Position numbers and translations under genes: made by a program | Assembly (NCBI RefSeq): GCF_001894745.1 | Contig: NZ_BBYF01000017.1 | Span: 62,001-126,000, forward strand | Origin: Paenibacillus sp. NAIST15-1 | GTDB lineage: Bacteria > Bacillota > Bacilli > Paenibacillales > Paenibacillaceae | Reading direction: 5' to 3' | Length of the DNA: 64,000 nt | Shown here: positions 3,709-63,544 of the stretch, one piece after another | How positions within the stretch are numbered: position 1 is the stretch's first letter | Layout: each line of letters starts with the position of its first letter | The notes under the pieces: generated by a model | Told to the model about the DNA's origin: nothing | Seen by the model: the letters and a program-made list of their open reading frames with translations, nothing else | Database searches by the model: none

Positions 3709-4758
3709 ATGGCAGCTGAGGTTCATGTAGCCAGCATCCATGATTATTTTGAGCGTTATTCTGAAATGATTCATGGTGAGATGGAAAGCAGCACTTGGGA
3801 GCAGCGAGTGTTCCTTCCTCCTCACATAGGAACGGGCAGTGTGATCCGGATGCGCGTCCGTGAAGGTATGGAAATCATGGTGACCGACGTCACTTATGCG
3901 GAAGATATGAGGCTCCACATTCAGGAGGCATGCCGTCTGTTTGAACTGAGTTATTGTTTGAGCGGAGAAGTGTATTGCGAATGGGGTGGAAAAGCAAGCC
4001 ATACGGAACCGCAGTCTGGCAATGTGCTGCTGTTGGAGGATGTGCAGGTATATGAGGAGAAAAAGGCAGGAATGCACCATCATATGGTCGAGGTGAGATT
4101 TTCACCGGATGAACTGTATGCCTATGCCGCTGATGCGGCCGAGAAGCAGAACATGGAGAGATTGCTTCATCGTCACCTTGGCAGTATTGACTCCTATTCG
4201 GTCACACCTGACATTCATCGATGTGTAACGGATATGCTTCGGTGCAATTATCGGGGAAAGATGAAGCGACTATACATGGAGAGCAAAGCTATCGAATTCC
4301 TCGCCTTATTCGGAGAGACTGACGAAATTCATGATCGAACAGTGAGACGAATCGTTCGACGCGATGATATCGTGAAGCTTCATGAGGCAAGGGAAATGGT
4401 AATGAACAACTATGAACAGCCCTTGTCGATACGAGAACTCTCCAAGCATGTCGGGATCAACGAATTCAAGCTGAAAGCAGGATTTCGAGAATTGTTCGGC
4501 TCAACAGTATTCGAACTGGTGCGCAAGCAGCGGATCGAGAAAGCGATATGGCATATGGAAATGGGGCATCTGAATGTAGGGGAAGCAGCCGTCGCGGTCG
4601 GGTATAGTAATGTTAGCAACTTTACGGCAGCCTTTCGCAAGCATTACGGCTGCAATCCAAGCTCGTTCCTCAAGCAGTTGGAACAGCAGGATCAAGTTCG
4701 AAGGTCGTCTTCGAATGGCGGCGACTCTTCCATTTCGCAAGGGGATCCTTTGGCCTAA
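3709..4758 (+). CDS. AraC family transcriptional regulator
   Basis: The 349-residue protein has an N-terminal effector part of about 220 residues and a C-terminal pair of AraC helix-turn-helix motifs (about residues 230-325). The latter include LSIRELSKHVGINEFKLKAGF and the signature GHLNVGEAAVAVGYSNVSNF ending in FRKHYGCNPSSF. The N-terminal region (FELSYCLSGEVYCEWGG) looks like a cupin-style ligand-binding sheet. It lies directly before an MFS exporter gene in the same orientation, with a 129-bp gap, so it probably regulates that exporter. The effector is unknown. Confidence 0.85.
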   Translation: MAAEVHVASIHDYFERYSEMIHGEMESSTWEQRVFLPPHIGTGSVIRMRVREGMEIMVTDVTYAEDMRLHIQEACRLFELSYCLSGEVYCEWGGKASHTEPQSGNVLLLEDVQVYEEKKAGMHHHMVEVRFSPDELYAYAADAAEKQNMERLLHRHLGSIDSYSVTPDIHRCVTDMLRCNYRGKMKRLYMESKAIEFLALFGETDEIHDRTVRRIVRRDDIVKLHEAREMVMNNYEQPLSIRELSKHVGINEFKLKAGFRELFGSTVFELVRKQRIEKAIWHMEMGHLNVGEAAVAVGYSNVSNFTAAFRKHYGCNPSSFLKQLEQQDQVRRSSSNGGDSSISQGDPLA

Positions 4759-4887
4759 TGTAGGTAGAAGGGTTCTTCAATTATTTCCGCTATAGGGGCA
4801 AAGACTCCCTCTTCAGGTAGAGCATGTGAACATGATTGGCTCATAATTAGAGTATTCATGTGATTCTAACTACTGGAGGGAATCGTA

Positions 4888-6375
4888 ATGTCTCCTATTT
4901 TGACAACTACATCACAACACACGGATGGTAATCAGCGAATAGAGGGGAATCCGAAACGATGGATTGCACTCGTTATCGTACTGCTGCCGACGCTGCTTAT
5001 CTCACTGAACACTTATATGATTCAGGTTGCTCTGCCGTCGATGCAGCACAGCTTGAACGCAAGCTTCGCTGAAGCGCAGCTAATCGTTACAGGTTTCTCT
5101 CTTGGCTTGGCGGTGGCCTTGATCATCAGCGGGAAGTTGGGTGACATATACGGAAGAAAACGGCTGCTTCTTATTGGAGTGAGCGGGTTCACAATCATGG
5201 CCATGCTTGGAGGCTTGACCTCGGATCCTTCCCTGCTTATTGCCATTCGGATCGTTCAAGGCTTGGCTGCTGCGCTCATTCAGCCCCAGGTTCTTTCTAC
5301 GATGCAGGTCAGCTTTCCGCCACGAGAAAAGGCAATCGCGTTCAGCATATATGGTGCAATCATTGGATTTGGATTTGCTTTTGGACTCATTTTTGGGGGC
5401 CTTATCGTGAACTGGAACCTGTTCGATCTTGGCTGGCGGATGGTGTTCTTTGTTAACGTTCCATTCGGTATGCTGGTTCTGATGCTGCTGCCAATCATTC
5501 CAGAATCGAGCGGGGAGAAACAGCCTATTGATTGGAGTGGTGCACTTCTGCTCATAAGTGGCTTATTTTTGCTTGTATATCCTTTATCGGAAGGGCAGAG
5601 GCAGGGGTGGCCGTTGTGGGTTTGGTTTTGCTTGCTGATCGGTATTGGTGTACTCATTACTTTTGTGGTATTCGAGTGTCGCACGAAGAGAAGAAACGCC
5701 TTTCCATTGGTGAATCTTGATGTATTTCGGCATGCTTCCTTTCGCGTAGGTATGTTGGCTGTGCTTGTCGTGTACCTGGGCATGTTCGCTTTCTTTTTCC
5801 TATTAAGCTACTATGTCCAATACGGCCTGCATAAGGATGTTCAAACTACAAGCATGGTGTTTCTGCCATTGGGGGTCGGGTTCTTTCTGTCCTCTCTTTT
5901 ATCCTCCCGTTTCGTAGAAAAATGGGGGATAGGTACACTGAAGCTCGGCTCGATCGGCATGGCTATATGCATATTGCTGCTGATTGGTTCTATCTTGTAT
6001 GACGCGAGGGCAATGCTTGATTACCGTAATCTTCTCCTATTATGGATGTACGGATTCAGTCTTGGCATGGTCACGACACCACTTGCGAATATCGTTCTGA
6101 GCACAGTTCCGAAGAAGGATGCAGGATCGGGATCAGGACTATTCACGACCTGCATGTACTTGGCGAATTCGCTAGGGGTGGCATTGATCGGTATTGTGTT
6201 TTCCGGCGTACTTGGACATGCACTCGTAGAAGCAGAGCTGTCTGATTATGTACGCGCATTTTCTGTATCAGTTGGTGCTTGCGGAGGGCTGGCATTGGCG
6301 ACTTTCGTCTGTCTCTGCTTTTTACCGGATCATAGCCGGAATAACCGATTGGCAAAAGCGAAGCATACATTGTGA
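4888..6375 (+). CDS. MFS drug/metabolite exporter, DHA2 (14-TM) family
   Basis: The 495-residue protein has about 14 hydrophobic segments. It carries the MFS motif A loop GKLGDIYGRKR (near residues 81-91) and a motif C-like GFGFAFGLIFGG stretch in TM5, the pattern of proton-coupled DHA2 antiporters such as EmrB and QacA. The start ATG has a GGAGGG ribosome site. It lies downstream of an AraC regulator, which suggests ligand-induced efflux. The substrate cannot be read from the sequence. Confidence 0.85.
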   Translation: MSPILTTTSQHTDGNQRIEGNPKRWIALVIVLLPTLLISLNTYMIQVALPSMQHSLNASFAEAQLIVTGFSLGLAVALIISGKLGDIYGRKRLLLIGVSGFTIMAMLGGLTSDPSLLIAIRIVQGLAAALIQPQVLSTMQVSFPPREKAIAFSIYGAIIGFGFAFGLIFGGLIVNWNLFDLGWRMVFFVNVPFGMLVLMLLPIIPESSGEKQPIDWSGALLLISGLFLLVYPLSEGQRQGWPLWVWFCLLIGIGVLITFVVFECRTKRRNAFPLVNLDVFRHASFRVGMLAVLVVYLGMFAFFFLLSYYVQYGLHKDVQTTSMVFLPLGVGFFLSSLLSSRFVEKWGIGTLKLGSIGMAICILLLIGSILYDARAMLDYRNLLLLWMYGFSLGMVTTPLANIVLSTVPKKDAGSGSGLFTTCMYLANSLGVALIGIVFSGVLGHALVEAELSDYVRAFSVSVGACGGLALATFVCLCFLPDHSRNNRLAKAKHTL

Positions 6376-6426: not shown

Positions 6427-6924
6427 ATGAGTATGGTCACGCTGCATCAGGTCGAGTACGAGCAAAAATCTACGCTTCGCAATTTGCTGGAGCTGTATAA
6501 ATATGATTTCAGTGAATACGATCCTGAGGACGTCAACGAGAACGGTCTATATGAATATATGTATCTGGATCATTACTGGACAGAGGAAGGGAGATATCCT
6601 TTCTTCATTCGAGTGAATGGGAAGCTTGCGGGATTAGCGCTCGTAAGGAAGTTGGGAACGGATGACGACAAGAGAACGGTTTATTCGATGGCGGAATTTT
6701 TCGTAATGAAAAAGTATCGGCAATCGGGAGTAGGAAAGTATGCGGCAACAGCTTTGTTCGATCAGTTTCAGGGGAATTGGAAAGTTGGCCAGATTGACGA
6801 GAACGTACCTTCGCAGCATTTTTGGAGAAAGGTAATTGCAGCCTACACAAACGATAACTATGAAGAGATTCGGGAAAACGGCTGGGACGGCCCGATCCAA
6901 TGCTTCTCCACTGAGCTTCAGTAG
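6427..6924 (+). CDS. GNAT family N-acetyltransferase
   Basis: The 165-residue protein has the GNAT core: an N-terminal helix-rich part, strand FFIRVNGKLAGLALV, the AEFFVMKKYRQSGVGKYAATALF acetyl-CoA loop (Q/RxxGxG/A form, around residues 90-110), and a C-terminal WKVGQIDENVPSQHFWRK segment. It follows the MFS exporter by 51 bp behind a GGAGGAG site and may share its transcript. The substrate is unknown. Confidence 0.8.
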   Translation: MSMVTLHQVEYEQKSTLRNLLELYKYDFSEYDPEDVNENGLYEYMYLDHYWTEEGRYPFFIRVNGKLAGLALVRKLGTDDDKRTVYSMAEFFVMKKYRQSGVGKYAATALFDQFQGNWKVGQIDENVPSQHFWRKVIAAYTNDNYEEIRENGWDGPIQCFSTELQ

Positions 6925-7071
6925 AAGAGAGTTTCAATAATCGTTGTCCGAAAAAAATATTTTTAAATAACGACATCAATTTTACGCCCCGCTTGTGGCT
7001 TCTGGATCGCTGCATACACCAGTAGCTTTTTTAGTGGGGAAGTGTGAAGTGAACAGATGAGCATGCAAATG

Positions 7072-7130
7072 AAAAAGCCCGCTTGACGAACGGCTGATAT
7101 GCACGAGCCATTTGTCTGAGCGGGCTATTT
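7072..7130. terminator. Long bidirectional terminator between convergent genes
   Basis: The hairpin arms run from about 7076 to 7095 and 7106 to 7126: AGCCCGCT pairs with AGCGGGCT, then GACGAACGGCT pairs with AGCCATTTGTC, with one mismatch and a G-T pair. On the minus strand it ends in a T run, so it is the natural terminator of the Lrp gene. It can also stop the acetyltransferase transcript. Confidence 0.85.
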
Positions 7131-33660: not shown

Positions 33661-33898
33661 CTTGCTTACTCCTCCTTTGCGCGACTTCATCGGTTGACCA
33701 ATGGAGCATTGGTTCGAATTATACCTACCGGAACGGTTGAAGTAAAGGGAAGGACTCGCAGAAAGAATGGTATTTTTGTAGCGTTTCTTGCTTTGACAGG
33801 TTCTATTGGGGTGGATAATAATAGATATCAAGAGGTATTGTGGAAGCAATTGTGGAGCATGTTCTTAAGATTTATGACAACGAACGGAGTGGAAGTCT

Positions 33899-34408
33899 AT
33901 GGACAGTCGTGTTCAAATTAAAGAGATAGAGCAGTTGGATGGAGAAGTGCTTCAAGGGCTATCAACGTTGTTATTGGACGTCGTGAATGATGGTGCATCA
34001 ATAGGATTCCTCCCTCCACTGGATCGCAAGATGGCTGACGATTATTGGGCAGCGGTATTGCAGCCGGAGGTGCGCCTGTGGGTTGCGCTCGTTGATAATC
34101 AGATGTGCGGTACAATCCAGCTTCATCTCGCTCAAAAGCCGAATGCTCTTCATCGTGCGGAAGTGGCGAAGTTGATGGTGCACCCTTCCCAGCGCAGAAT
34201 GGGGATTGCCAAGGGGTTATTGCGTGTTGTAGAAGATTGCGCGCACGATGAAGAACGAAGCTTGCTGGTGCTAGATACGAGAGAAGGAGATCCTTCTAAC
34301 TTGTTGTACCAATCTTACGGGTATATGGAAGCTGGACGGATTCCGGAATTCGCCAAGTCTGCAGATGGAGATTATCACGCAACCGTTATTTATTATAAGA
34401 AGTTCTAA
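33899..34408 (+). CDS. GNAT family N-acetyltransferase
   Basis: The 169-residue protein has the GNAT core: VALVDNQMCGTIQLHL, AEVAKLMVHPSQRRMGIAKGLLRVVEDCA (acetyl-CoA loop near residues 90-110) and LLVLDTREGDPSNLLYQSYGYMEAG. The start ATG follows GGAGTGG. It is followed by a RidA gene in the same direction with a 38-bp gap. Confidence 0.85.
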   Translation: MDSRVQIKEIEQLDGEVLQGLSTLLLDVVNDGASIGFLPPLDRKMADDYWAAVLQPEVRLWVALVDNQMCGTIQLHLAQKPNALHRAEVAKLMVHPSQRRMGIAKGLLRVVEDCAHDEERSLLVLDTREGDPSNLLYQSYGYMEAGRIPEFAKSADGDYHATVIYYKKF

Positions 34409-34446
34409 CATTAACGTGGGACATGATATAGAGGGAGTGGGATACA

Positions 34447-34845
34447 ATGACCGAACGAGTTCGGGTAACAACAGGATCACCTTGGGAGCCATTGGTAGGC
34501 TATTGCCGAGCGATACGAGTGGGCGATCAGGTCGAGGTTGCGGGTACAACAGCGATGCAGGATGGCCAAGTGGTCGGTGTAAATGATGCCCATGCGCAAA
34601 CTACATATATTTTGCAAGTTATTTCTGACGCTCTGAACCAAGTTGGAGCAAGTTTGTCCGATGTTGTTCGAACAAGAATGTTCGTCACAGACATAACCAA
34701 GTGGGAAGAGATTGGCAGAGCTCGCGGTGAATTTTTCCGCGACATTTGCCCGGTAGCTACGATGGTAGAAGTAAAGGCCCTTATTGATCCTGCCCTGCTC
34801 GTTGAAATCGAAGTACAGGCGATTGTGACGGATACGGTTGTATAG
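34447..34845 (+). CDS. RidA family protein
   Basis: The 132-residue protein belongs to the YjgF/YER057c/UK114 (Rid) family of enamine/imine deaminases: GDQVEVAGTTAMQDGQVVG, a TTYILQVISDALNQVGASLSDVVRTRMFVTD block, and the end LLVEIEVQAIV. The Arg that normally precedes the LVEIE segment is not in its usual place (LIDPALLVEIE), so the deaminase activity of RidA itself is uncertain. The start ATG follows GAGGGAG. Confidence 0.85.
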   Translation: MTERVRVTTGSPWEPLVGYCRAIRVGDQVEVAGTTAMQDGQVVGVNDAHAQTTYILQVISDALNQVGASLSDVVRTRMFVTDITKWEEIGRARGEFFRDICPVATMVEVKALIDPALLVEIEVQAIVTDTVV

Positions 34846-34949
34846 ATGAGTGTACTTGATAGGTATCTGCTACTATTGGAGTGACTGTGTGCACCTAATG
34901 GTGTCTATGCACATGAAACTAGGAGACTTTAGAGGAGATAGCACGACAT

Positions 34950-35463
34950 ATGGATATTGAGATTATGCCGTATCATTCATCGTGGAAAAGTGAGTTTCTA
35001 GAGATTGGGCGACGGATAAGGGAAGCGCTAGGGGATGCTGCTGCTCGGATCTATCATATTGGTTCTACTTCTGTGGAAGGATTGGCAGCCAAGCCGATTA
35101 TTGATATACAGGTATCTGTTCGTTCGTGGGATGACTTTGAGCATTTGATACGTCAATTCAATTCGATCGGCTATGTTCATCGCGCAGATAATCCAGACAA
35201 GACGAAGCGTTATTTTCGCGAAGCTCCTGGAGGGAAGCGCACGCATATCGGAGCAGTTCCCGCTCCTGTTCAGAGATTACTTGCGCTGCCATATTGATGA
35301 ATGTGAGTTGTATGCTGCGGTCAAATATGAGCTGATGAAGAAGTACCAGAAGGACAGGCATGGATATGTTGATGCCAAAGAACCTATCATCTGGGACATT
35401 ATGCGCAGAGCGAGCAGTTGGAGTCAGGAAGTTGGCTGGAGGGCTGGAGAGACAGATGTGTAA
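34950..35463 (+). pseudogene. GrpB family nucleotidyltransferase-like gene with a frameshift
   Basis: The first part reads as a GrpB protein (PYHSSWKSEF, RIYHIGSTSVEGLAAKPIIDI, YFREAPGGKRTHI) in one frame to about 35250. The rest of the family (SEQFPLLFRDYL, ELMKKYQKDRHGYVDAKEPIIWDIMRRAS, EVGW) continues in the next frame to 35463. Compared with the family layout, about six to eight residues between RTHI and SEQF are also missing. A small out-of-frame deletion near 35247 therefore explains the break. Without correction the product ends early at 35297. Confidence 0.8.
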
Positions 35464-35639: not shown

Positions 35640-37544
35640 GTGAATCTACCATGGGTCATATTTTTTATTGTTTGGATGACAATTTTCTTTCTGACAGAAT
35701 ATTCTCTGTTATTGGGTGTATTATTTGGCAGTGTATCAAGCATCTATGTTATATACCGTTATTTTAGCGATAAGAAAGAACGCGAGGCGGAAAGGCAGAG
35801 AATGATTGCTGATGCGACAAGCTATGAAGAAGACTACGAAGATAACGAGGAAGAGGAATATGAGGACGATGGGGAAGAAGAAAGTGCGGATGGTGATGAA
35901 GAGGACGAATTGCTCGAAGATGCAGCCATAATTGTAGCGGAAGTCGGATACGCGTCAACGGCTCTCCTTCAATCAAAATTAAATATAGGAGCACAGAGAG
36001 CTCGGCTCATTCAGGAGCAGCTAGAGGTGGTGCAAATTGTTGGCCCGCCATCAGCAAGTGATAGACGGCAAGCGCTCCTAACCCCAGATGGAGTAACTGC
36101 ACTTATCAAAGAGGTGTATTCCAATGAGGAGGACTTGACTGAAGAAGAACAGGCTGAAGCGGACCGAAATATAGAAGCCCTTTTGCAGGAGCTTCATGAG
36201 TTAACGGGTCTTGATGCGATGCATCAGAACATTCAGCGCCTCGTTCGACTAATCCAGAGGCTTAATAATCGCTATGATTTGGGACAAGACATTTATTATC
36301 CGAGAATTCATATGATATTCGCTACGGAACCGGGTACTTGGGAGATGAGGGCTGCTGATCTCATTTCTTCTCTCTTTCACGAACTGTTCTACTTGTCTGA
36401 ACGAACGGTAACTGAGGTGAATTATAAACAATTAATTGATCCGTACCGCCGAAGACGCTCACAGTCTACGCTCGATATTGTTGAACAGGCACGCGGAGGC
36501 GTACTTGTAATACAAGATGCCTACAAGCTGCTTGAAGACGATCGAACCGGACAGGGGCGGGAAGCGCTAGATATGTTATTTTGTTGTTTGGAAAATGAGA
36601 CTGAAGAAGATGATGAAATTCTCGTCATTTTAACGGGAGCGCCAGCGAAAATGCACCGCTTCTTGGAGGAACATATTGAAATAGGACTTTATTTCACAAG
36701 TGTGTATGCGCTCAACATTGAGGTTCCATCCGCTAGTCGGACGACTTCTCCATCAGTAGAGAAGCGGAAGGAGTCAACATCGCTGAGCGATACTGAGCAG
36801 TCAGGCAATCACACAGCAGAAATGCATTCCAATATGAAGAGTAGCGAGATATCGAATGCTGATGAATCCCAGCAAACTGATAAATTTCAACAGCCAGATG
36901 AATCGCTGCAGGGACGAACATTATCAGCAAATCCAAACTACTCTAAGGCACAATCAGATCAAACGGGGGAAGCAAGATTCGATTTACAAGGTAGTTTGAA
37001 TGAATTCCTATCCAGTGGAGTACTTGGCGAATATGCAGAATCGCTATGCCAACTTGTCCATCGGTTGTCACAATATCAAGAAGGGAAGGCAAAAGGATTG
37101 TACGTCGATATGCCTCCCATGTGTCTTGCAGTTATGGGCGGTATCGAGCCTGCTAGGGTACAGGTAATTGAACTCTTGTCTCAGGTGTATAAGAAGTGCG
37201 GCATTCTATCATGGGGGCAAATCGTACCTGTATCAATAGACAATATGGAGGATCAGGATCCAAGTTCCATAAGCAGTAACGTAATATCGAATCTCCAACA
37301 TGCGAAGAATGGTATGCTTGTGCTGCGGCTTCCTGCACAAGATAGAAATCGTACACATGCAGACAAGGTGCGTGCATTAACGGAGTCTCTGGTGAAAGCT
37401 ACGGATCGCTATTCCTCCGAAACCGTAATCATCATCGAAGGGGATGCCAACGATGTTGCCGTCTTTTTGAAAAACAGCTCAGTACTACGGATGCGTTTCT
37501 CAGAAATCATTCAATTACCAAGTTTGTCGGAAATCGGCTCTTAA
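35640..37544 (+). CDS. Membrane-anchored protein with FtsK-gamma-like and two pseudo-AAA domains
   Basis: The 634-residue protein has two adjacent hydrophobic segments (residues 4-42) and a very acidic linker (60-95). A winged-helix segment like the FtsK gamma domain follows (GYASTALLQSKLNIGAQRAR, 103-122, then IVGPP). Residues 180-363 align in order with the CbbX/SpoVK AAA domain, but the P-loop GNPGTGKT position reads ATEPGTWE (228-235) and the Walker B position reads GVLVIQDAY (287-295). A Ser/Thr/Gln-rich linker (364-455) leads to a second copy (455-628): LAVMGGIEPARV in the P-loop place, GMLVLRLP for Walker B, and a retained RMRF near 617. Both copies should be unable to hydrolyse ATP. 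The start is GTG at 35640 with a weak GGGG site. It heads a cluster with a zinc-ribbon protein and a YdcF protein. Confidence 0.7.
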   Translation: MNLPWVIFFIVWMTIFFLTEYSLLLGVLFGSVSSIYVIYRYFSDKKEREAERQRMIADATSYEEDYEDNEEEEYEDDGEEESADGDEEDELLEDAAIIVAEVGYASTALLQSKLNIGAQRARLIQEQLEVVQIVGPPSASDRRQALLTPDGVTALIKEVYSNEEDLTEEEQAEADRNIEALLQELHELTGLDAMHQNIQRLVRLIQRLNNRYDLGQDIYYPRIHMIFATEPGTWEMRAADLISSLFHELFYLSERTVTEVNYKQLIDPYRRRRSQSTLDIVEQARGGVLVIQDAYKLLEDDRTGQGREALDMLFCCLENETEEDDEILVILTGAPAKMHRFLEEHIEIGLYFTSVYALNIEVPSASRTTSPSVEKRKESTSLSDTEQSGNHTAEMHSNMKSSEISNADESQQTDKFQQPDESLQGRTLSANPNYSKAQSDQTGEARFDLQGSLNEFLSSGVLGEYAESLCQLVHRLSQYQEGKAKGLYVDMPPMCLAVMGGIEPARVQVIELLSQVYKKCGILSWGQIVPVSIDNMEDQDPSSISSNVISNLQHAKNGMLVLRLPAQDRNRTHADKVRALTESLVKATDRYSSETVIIIEGDANDVAVFLKNSSVLRMRFSEIIQLPSLSEIGS

Positions 37545-37631
37545 CCATGTGATGCAACATATTGGAGTAGCGTAAGATGAGGACTGGGTGTCATTCTATC
37601 TTCTGCAAATAGAACAGGGGGAATGTAGCAC

Positions 37632-62207: not shown

Positions 62208-62344
62208 GCATGTTGCTCGAGTTGCAGCCATTCATTTATGGACATTCGACCGGCTAATCAGAGAATGTTATGATATTCACAACACGATAGAAGCGAAGCA
62301 ACAACCTAGCAGCAGCAACGGCAATGAAAAGAAGGTGTGTTAAC

Positions 62345-63544
62345 GTGTACTTTGATCGTGAAACGATTCGAAATAGATTGCATGCCCAATTGAAATCGAA
62401 CGGGCACATTATTGGCGTAGCAGCCGGTGCAGGGATTTCGGCTAAATATGCGGTAAAGGGCGGCGCCGATTTCATTTTGGCATTGAATTCGGGGCGCTTC
62501 AGACAGATGGGCTTAAGCTCTCTAGGGGGACTGCTCCCATTTGGGAACTGCAATGAGCTCGTCATGGAATTTGGCTCGAAGGAAATTGTACCGCTCGTCA
62601 GAGAGGTACCGGTGATGTTCGGGTTATGCGCAACAGATCCGACAATTCAGTTGGAGGCGTACATTCAAGAAATTCAGAATAAAGGATTCTCGGGAATCAA
62701 CAATTACCCTACCGTTGGACTGATTGGTGGACAATTCGGCGAGGCGCTAGAAGAAGCGGGTATCAGCTTCGAGTCGGAAGTGGAAGCGATCCGTATCGCA
62801 AGCGGGATGGGCATGTTCACGATTGCGTTCGTGTTCAACCGGGAACAGGCGCACCTGATGGCAGCAGCCGGTGCAGATGTAATCTGTGCTCACTTAGGAT
62901 TTACGAAGGGCGGCGTATTAGGTGCGGCGAAGGTGCTCTCTTTAAAGGCAGCCGCAGACTTGGCGGCGCAGATTTTCCAAGTGAGCGATAAAATCAATCC
63001 GAATGTGATCAAGATGATCTATGGCGGTCCAGTCAATACGCCGGCTGATGTGAAATATATGTATGACAATACGAGCGCAGTCGGGTACTTGGGCGGCTCA
63101 TCATTTGAGCGAATTCCTTCAGAGGCGGCGATTACGAAGACTGCGATTGATTTTAAGGAAGTTGGGGTAACGGAGCAAGACAAGCTGCTTCATAAAATGC
63201 TCGAAGGGGTGACGAAGCATTACGATTATGTGCAGTTCGTGAAGGAATACGTTGAGGCGAACTACATGCATGATATTTCGTTTGCAGAGCTGGCCCAAGT
63301 TGCACATCTGTCTAGAACCCATCTGAGTTATTTATTCAAGCAAGAGGTGGGATGTACATTTCCAGAATACTTGACTAGATTCAGAATCAATAAGTCGATC
63401 GAGTTGATGAAGCAGCGTCATTTAGATTTGTTGGAGCTATCTGGCTTGGTTGGCTATAACGATTATGCGCACTTCAGCAAAATGTTCAAAAAGACAACGG
63501 GATTGTCTCCAAGAGAATATCAACGGCAATACAAAAACACATGA
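62345..63544 (+). CDS. PEP-hydrolase-like TIM barrel fused to an AraC DNA-binding domain
   Basis: The protein of 399 residues has two parts. Residues about 1-275 match the TIM-barrel phosphoenolpyruvate-hydrolase-like family: IGVAAGAGISAKYAVKGGADFILALNSGRFR, FGNCNELVMEFGSKEIVPLV, PVMFGLCATDP, GADVICAHLGFTKGG. Residues about 295-395 are a full AraC helix-turn-helix pair (ISFAELAQVAHLSRTHLSYLFKQEVG and LDLLELSGLVGYNDYAHFSKMFKKTTGLSPREYQRQY). The likely start is GTG at 62345, seven bases after GAAGGTG; an ATG at 62324 precedes that site. A Tm-1-like gene follows, and the barrel may sense its substrate to regulate it. Confidence 0.8.
   Translation: MYFDRETIRNRLHAQLKSNGHIIGVAAGAGISAKYAVKGGADFILALNSGRFRQMGLSSLGGLLPFGNCNELVMEFGSKEIVPLVREVPVMFGLCATDPTIQLEAYIQEIQNKGFSGINNYPTVGLIGGQFGEALEEAGISFESEVEAIRIASGMGMFTIAFVFNREQAHLMAAAGADVICAHLGFTKGGVLGAAKVLSLKAAADLAAQIFQVSDKINPNVIKMIYGGPVNTPADVKYMYDNTSAVGYLGGSSFERIPSEAAITKTAIDFKEVGVTEQDKLLHKMLEGVTKHYDYVQFVKEYVEANYMHDISFAELAQVAHLSRTHLSYLFKQEVGCTFPEYLTRFRINKSIELMKQRHLDLLELSGLVGYNDYAHFSKMFKKTTGLSPREYQRQYKNT

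Follow-up and report, generated by a model that had tools for sequence, protein, structure and literature searches.

A putative membrane-anchored pseudo-AAA+ protein with an FtsK gamma domain in Paenibacillus sp. NAIST15-1

The gene, its domains and their motifs

The window, a stretch of 64,000 nucleotides from Paenibacillus sp. NAIST15-1, contains an open frame of 634 codons with a GTG start (35640..37544), which lies on the forward strand, as do all parts of it located below. The 634 aa product is predicted to be a membrane protein and is almost certainly a pseudo-AAA+. Residues 1-44 (35640..35771) are hydrophobic, with 17-residue hydropathy windows above 1.6 beginning at residues 1-11, 13-16 and 21-23, and may form two short membrane spans arranged as a hairpin. 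They are followed by an acidic linker at residues 45-86 (35772..35897; D/E at 21 and K/R at 5 of 42 positions) and an FtsK gamma winged-helix domain at residues 87-147 (35898..36080), matched by PF09397 with E 1.9e-12 and 47.1 bits, above the gathering cut-off of 30.6. Hydropathy, D/E count and Pfam match thus agree with a preliminary description of this DNA, which had read an N-terminal anchor, an acidic linker and an FtsK-gamma-like segment from the sequence. Residues 148-176 (36081..36167) form an acidic spacer in the place of a second gamma domain; the intact relatives have a tandem pair of gamma domains against one in the window protein, which the description had overlooked.

The remainder consists of two SpoVK/CbbX-type cores. 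Core 1 covers residues 177-366 (36168..36737), lacks a lid, and contains the degenerate Walker A and Walker B motifs TEPGTWEM (36324..36347) and VLVIQDAY (36501..36524). A low-complexity linker at residues 367-446 (36738..36977) sits where tandem relatives carry their first lid. Core 2 covers residues 447-634 (36978..37541) and terminates before the lid; it contains a degenerate Walker A motif, GGIEPARV (37137..37160), with arginine in place of lysine as in all four copies, a degenerate Walker B motif, MLVLRLPA (37314..37337), and SSVLRMRF (37476..37499), which is identical in the four copies and includes the arginine-finger position R619.

Both cores were assigned to the SpoVK/CbbX/EccA clade by profile homology of the AAA+ core. 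Core 1 was matched by the SpoVK model TIGR02881 (E 1.9e-29, residues 182-364) and by the CbbX (1.1e-23) and EccA (1.8e-19) models, with scores far below the curated cut-offs of the latter two (83.9 against 459.25 and 69.8 against 466.65 bits) and below the SpoVK equivalog cut-off (102.5 against 422.95 bits). In a sequence search of the PDB it also matched solved chains of CbbX (E 2.7e-16) and EccA1. The Pfam AAA model reported core 1 only, at 21.6 bits against a cut-off of 21.2. Core 2 alone was matched by TIGR02881 in all four copies (E 1.1e-5 in the window protein, 1.7e-14 at best), and its profile retrieved EccA1 and CbbX chains from the PDB (E 2.6e-9 and 1.3e-7); designed repeat proteins were also retrieved, and no stretch passed on its own. 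Comparison of the core 2 and SpoVK profiles with hhalign gave 97.7% and E 1.8e-12. A single-chain AlphaFold model of core 2 had mean pLDDT 88.4 and pTM 0.85, although it was built from the window sequence together with 44 SpoVK-like viral-contig sequences and is not independent of that alignment.

The motifs were aligned to GNPGTGKT of SpoVK-like proteins, and Walker B likewise. The core 1 P-loop reads GLPGMGQM in the relatives; that of core 2 reads GGVESGRS, GGAESGRS or GGTESGRA in them, with the glycines of the loop retained. Walker B of core 1 reads VVVIPDLY in the relatives and VVVIADLY in the broken copy of genome G009, and that of core 2 LLVVRIHE, or LLVVHIHE in G018. In all five core 1 and all four core 2 copies the P-loop lysine (replaced by E or Q in core 1 and by R in core 2) and the Walker B aspartate and glutamate are substituted, and no copy of either core has intact Walker A and Walker B motifs; the change of the Walker B glutamate of core 1 to aspartate is mild and keeps an acidic residue. 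The GY signature of sensor 1, which with the other hallmarks of the clade was defined after an excerpt of PMC10659427, is absent, the four copies having GA or GP there in core 1 and GD, GP or GS in core 2. The position of the first arginine finger was seen in core 2, at R619, and not in core 1.

Profile matches and motif alignment therefore bear out the preliminary reading of two tandem CbbX/SpoVK-like domains without working Walker motifs, including its P-loop and Walker B assignments, and support a catalytically dead, membrane-bound pseudo-AAA; the protein presumably neither hydrolyses ATP nor moves DNA. The description had also held that close homologs with intact motifs would point to recent decay. 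Relatives of similar layout with intact motifs do exist, but they belong to other genera and are far diverged, and recent decay in the window genome alone was rejected, since the motif residues are substituted in every copy found within the family.

The gamma domain was compared with that of FtsK itself. Besides the pseudo-AAA gene, the window genome has a single PF09397 match at E 0.001, an FtsK-type ORF of 934 aa; each of 19 genomes of the genus has one strong gamma match in an FtsK-like ORF of 866-938 aa, and further matches at E 0.001 occur only in the five carriers of the pseudo-AAA gene. The recognition helix of the genome's own FtsK reads LQRRMRIGYNRASRL, that of the window gamma domain LQSKLNIGAQRARLI and that of the relatives' gamma 1 LEAELDIDEEDAEYI. 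Which recognition-helix residues touch DNA is here our own assumption. The residues common to FtsK gammas are partly kept in the window protein, whose helix retains IG..RA, and are lost in the relatives' gamma 1, where acidic residues replace them. Basic residues number 5 of 70 in the window segment and 2-3 in the relatives' gamma 1; in eight FtsK-like matches, 64-87 residues long, there are 7-13.

Distribution, locus and selection

A profile search of the 19 genus genomes identified the family in the window genome (G000), G007, G008 and G018, and in broken form in G009, which places relatives in 4 of the 18 other sampled species. The window copy and three relatives are full-length frames at 31-33% identity, while the G009 copy is interrupted and most of its core 2 was not recovered. 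A draw of 392 genomes from the order, whose rows do not include G007, G009 and G018, gave two matches at E 1e-40 (G000 and G008), in one of 49 genera and in none of the other 48. Genome contigs scanned with the single sequence yielded no relative; scanned with the alignment, they yielded at least eight loci, which matched around the gamma region only. No relative was found in viral contigs with the family alignment, for which the patterns used were acidic. A known defence gene and a known phage gene were rejected or disfavoured as identities: PADLOC gave no match for two proteins, PHROGs matches were confined to the gamma region, and nine phage records matched over at most 39% of the query. 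Of 200 plasmid records matched, of which three were inspected, none covered 80% of the query, the best reaching about 71%.

In the loci of the four relatives (18, 18, 11.7 and 18 kb) the pseudo-AAA gene was the only ORF with a match among the window ORFs at E 1e-5, and a conserved neighbour was rejected or disfavoured. In G018 the gene comes after fabF, rnc, smc and ftsY, as assigned from Pfam, and matching ORFs are present in G007 and G009. A bpsA-like gene lies downstream, in G018 after one more long ORF. Between ftsY and the pseudo-AAA gene, TRF detected an array of a 49-nt repeat in G007 and G009; the arrays, of 49-nt repeats and in L073 also of a 139-nt one, were located at 7516-8007 of L070 and at 6580-7077 and 7138-7963 of L073. 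In G016 these flanks are present but the gene is absent, and G010, whose contig stops soon after ftsY, was left out. The window's own neighbours are present in G002, where the gene is missing: positions 3901-5332 there align with window 33802-35236, and positions 5332-5390 with window 37487-37545. Taken by itself the latter match is weak (E 1.8; E 0.006 at the protein level), but its position and a frame ending RMRFHEAIQLSSACKIGS at the stop make it likely that a C-terminal stub of the last codons remains. The gene was probably once present and then lost beside the window's lineage, as an accessory gene.

Two further observations were made in the window. A GrpB-like gene at 34950-35463 is apparently split across two frames, with one ORF of 115 aa, a Pfam GrpB match, and another of 96 aa, and an ORF at 62324-63544 resembles, by eye, a TIM barrel at its start and an AraC-type protein at its end.

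Selection was evaluated among the G007, G008 and G018 copies. Whole-gene dN/dS was 0.31 for G007-G018 and 0.28 for G018-G008, which are in effect one contrast, since G007 and G008 have almost the same copy; the G007-G008 pair, with few changes, gave 0.55. By segment, the G018 pairs gave 0.10 for gamma 1, the lowest value, 0.29-0.30 for gamma 2, 0.22-0.23 for core 1, 0.21-0.25 for core 2 and 0.60-0.61 for the linker. The single informative divergence thus shows apparent purifying selection on the gene, with dN/dS about 0.3. Four neighbouring genes ranged from 0.03 to 0.25, the bpsA-like neighbour being at 0.23-0.25. Across the G018 pairs and others, dN was 0.105 for the gene against 0.005-0.022 for three of these neighbours and 0.071-0.084 for the fourth. 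Between G007 and G008 (L070, L072) the gene has dS 0.041, far below the 0.214 and 0.303 of two flanking genes, which suggests that it was recently exchanged between the two.

Missing lids and probable ancestry

In AAA+ proteins the lid contributes to nucleotide binding. The absence of a C-terminal lid with sensor 2 from both cores was overlooked in the preliminary description: the sequence either stops or turns low-complexity ahead of the lid region. In nine reference SpoVKs another 87-111 residues follow the point where core 1 ends. After the start of its second P-loop the pseudo-AAA family has 133-135 residues; two tandem relatives have 215 and 224 there.

Inspection covered five regions from the taxonomic family that hold frames of 585-1275 aa: two (G224 and G282) contained tandem ATPases, two contained three such domains each and one contained a single domain. 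Both tandems (720 aa, L162 1338-3497; 817 aa, L163 1509-3959) are SpoVK-like with intact Walker motifs, and share with the window protein the two cores, an N-terminus that is hydrophobic by eye and, in G282, an acidic stretch. Spacing from P-loop to P-loop is 271, 276, 276 and 288 in the pseudo-AAA family, similar to the 275 (G224), 286 (G282), 270 and 280 of active tandems, a group that also includes plasmid proteins of Virgibacillus and Pontibacillus. The active tandems differ in their intact motifs (one Pontibacillus P-loop is GPPGTAKT), in longer C-termini that fit a lid, and in having no gamma domain by eye. Layout and spacing suggest that the protein is probably an old pseudo-AAA+ descended from a tandem SpoVK-like ATPase, in which the first lid would have turned into the linker and the second would have been cut off. 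Against this view, neither core scores best with the active membrane tandems: in an HMM ranking of 98 domains a SpoVK came top for core 1 (136.0 bits; membrane tandems up to 107.6), and for core 2 a multi-AAA protein, by its second domain (61.5; membrane tandems up to 46.6). In the phylogeny the branches leading to the cores are very long, and neither it nor the ranking proves such a descent.

SpoVK itself falls in the same clade as both cores by profile; it differs in having one ATPase domain only, active and lid-bearing, and an N-terminal domain of its own, where the window protein is tandem and lidless, with a hydrophobic N-terminus and no working Walker motifs. CbbX and EccA are likewise active ATPases, related to the window protein through core homology to their solved chains. 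The likeness to FtsK is confined to the gamma domain, which here precedes the AAA cores and has partly lost its recognition-helix pattern, and there is no FtsK motor. In CoCoNuT-associated tandem ATPases of the SpoVK family one domain is inactivated while the C-terminal domain keeps its Walker motifs, according to an excerpt of PMC11090510; the window protein resembles them as a tandem with an inactivated domain and differs in having working motifs in neither. Among the matches listed in the open-licence literature, taken at the level of titles and abstract openings, no SpoVK/CbbX relative had an FtsK gamma domain or two dead domains. A tandem with one dead domain is already in print, and the features that appear new here are the death of both domains, the loss of both lids, the retention of the R619 position in core 2 and the apparent loss of much of the FtsK recognition-helix pattern from the gamma domain.

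Candidate partners and roles

A SpoVK-like gene co-occurs with the pseudo-AAA gene, a point that the preliminary description had raised as a question: at E 1e-10, a cut-off used in place of the curated SpoVK one, each of the five carriers has, besides the pseudo-AAA gene, no AAA member of the clade but a SpoVK-like ORF. SpoVK is a chaperone of MurG in sporulation, and Walker B and arginine-finger mutants of it are dominant over the wild type, lowering sporulation 100-1000 fold (excerpt of PMC10659427); on that account dead subunits can poison the SpoVK ring. Neither the neighbourhood nor a promoter scan tied the gene to sporulation. In the scan, with a sigma-E-like consensus, 222, 295, 294 and 296 of 300 shuffles were as good; the SpoVK controls were also weak, so that the scan carries little weight.

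Separately, the host spoVK of G000 was found split (C2:457468-458076 and 606636-607049; L152, L153, L157, L158) by about 148.6 kb of prophage-like DNA, with a recombinase-like ORF (557 aa, by eye) at its right end and a second, full spoVK-like gene just inside its left end. Eight of 74 viral contig loci (L096, L098, L100, L102, L103, L106, L142, L148) match a SpoVK-like query only to residue 137, and the frames in L096 and L098 end just past FGKEAIDTLVK, from which prophage insertion into spoVK around this codon may be frequent. Use of spoVK as a prophage integration site was not found among the papers listed, by title and abstract opening, and the main text of PMC10747680 does not contain spoVK.

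Several roles were weighed. A membrane tether for the nucleoid or chromosome, with the gamma domain on FtsK-type DNA sites, would fit a gamma match above the Pfam cut-off, the hydrophobic N-terminus and the IG..RA still present in the window helix, but with the helices LQSKLNIGAQRARLI and LEAELDIDEEDAEYI set against LQRRMRIGYNRASRL of the genome's own FtsK, and basic residues scarcer than in FtsK-like matches, it is most improbable. The preliminary suggestion of DNA scaffolding through this domain is disfavoured for the same replacement of the recognition-helix pattern. Very unlikely, too, is a switch that binds nucleotide without hydrolysing it, in which P-loops with lysine changed to glutamine or arginine would still bind ATP and change shape; the relatives do retain much of the loop (GLPGMGQMT; GGVESGRSS, GGAESGRSS, GGTESGRAS) and the Walker B glutamate position of core 1 remains acidic, but the window loops are further degraded and the lid is missing.

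A relic without present function, in which a former tandem chaperone is being lost as it decays under weak constraint, is unlikely. The interrupted copy in G009, the apparent stub between aligning flanks in G002, the matching flanks without the gene in G016, the faster change than in neighbouring genes and the dN/dS of 0.55 in the closest pair would all fit such decay. They stand against full-length frames in the window and three relatives at 31-33% identity, values of 0.10-0.30 for gamma domains and cores in the G018 pairs, and the invariant SSVLRMRF; a dN/dS of 0.3 is also not extreme beside the bpsA-like neighbour. A scaffold for partners outside the AAA+ proteins, which would bind them through its winged helix and its dead cores, is somewhat unlikely; in the G018 pairs gamma 1 shows a lower dN/dS than any other segment, the neighbourhood suggests no partner, and no direct counter-evidence was found.

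Our tentative preference, held with rather less than even confidence, is a membrane-anchored pseudo-AAA+ of the SpoVK-CbbX-EccA clade that serves as a non-catalytic scaffold or brake by docking on an active hexamer of the clade, most simply SpoVK; the preliminary suggestion that it caps or regulates an active hexamer may thus hold. This confidence overlaps with that in a scaffold for non-AAA+ proteins, the scaffold part being common to both, and a protein-binding scaffold or regulator of some kind is probable. The protein would act by protein binding at the membrane: its lidless cores would dock against the hexamer, core 2 would present the conserved arginine finger and SSVLRMRF to it, and the docked pseudo-AAA+ would hold or slow the chaperone there. 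SpoVK as the partner is rather doubtful. Several observations count against the preferred reading as a whole: a SpoVK-like match is present in 19/19 genus genomes whereas the pseudo-AAA gene is patchy and lost, no shared neighbour or sigma-E-like promoter was found, the arginine-finger position is missing in core 1, the G007-G008 dN/dS is 0.55, and the active membrane tandems do not score best with either core. Quite doubtful is the more specific proposal of a natural dominant-negative, a dead tandem chaperone fused to an FtsK-derived winged helix, whose membrane-tethered lidless tandem would insert into or cap the SpoVK hexamer and so set where or whether SpoVK works.

The protein provides an example of an FtsK gamma domain outside FtsK, and of a tandem in which both domains are dead and both lids gone, yet purifying selection appears in the informative contrast. 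If SpoVK is indeed its target, the protein would represent in nature the kind of subunit poisoning previously made by laboratory mutation.
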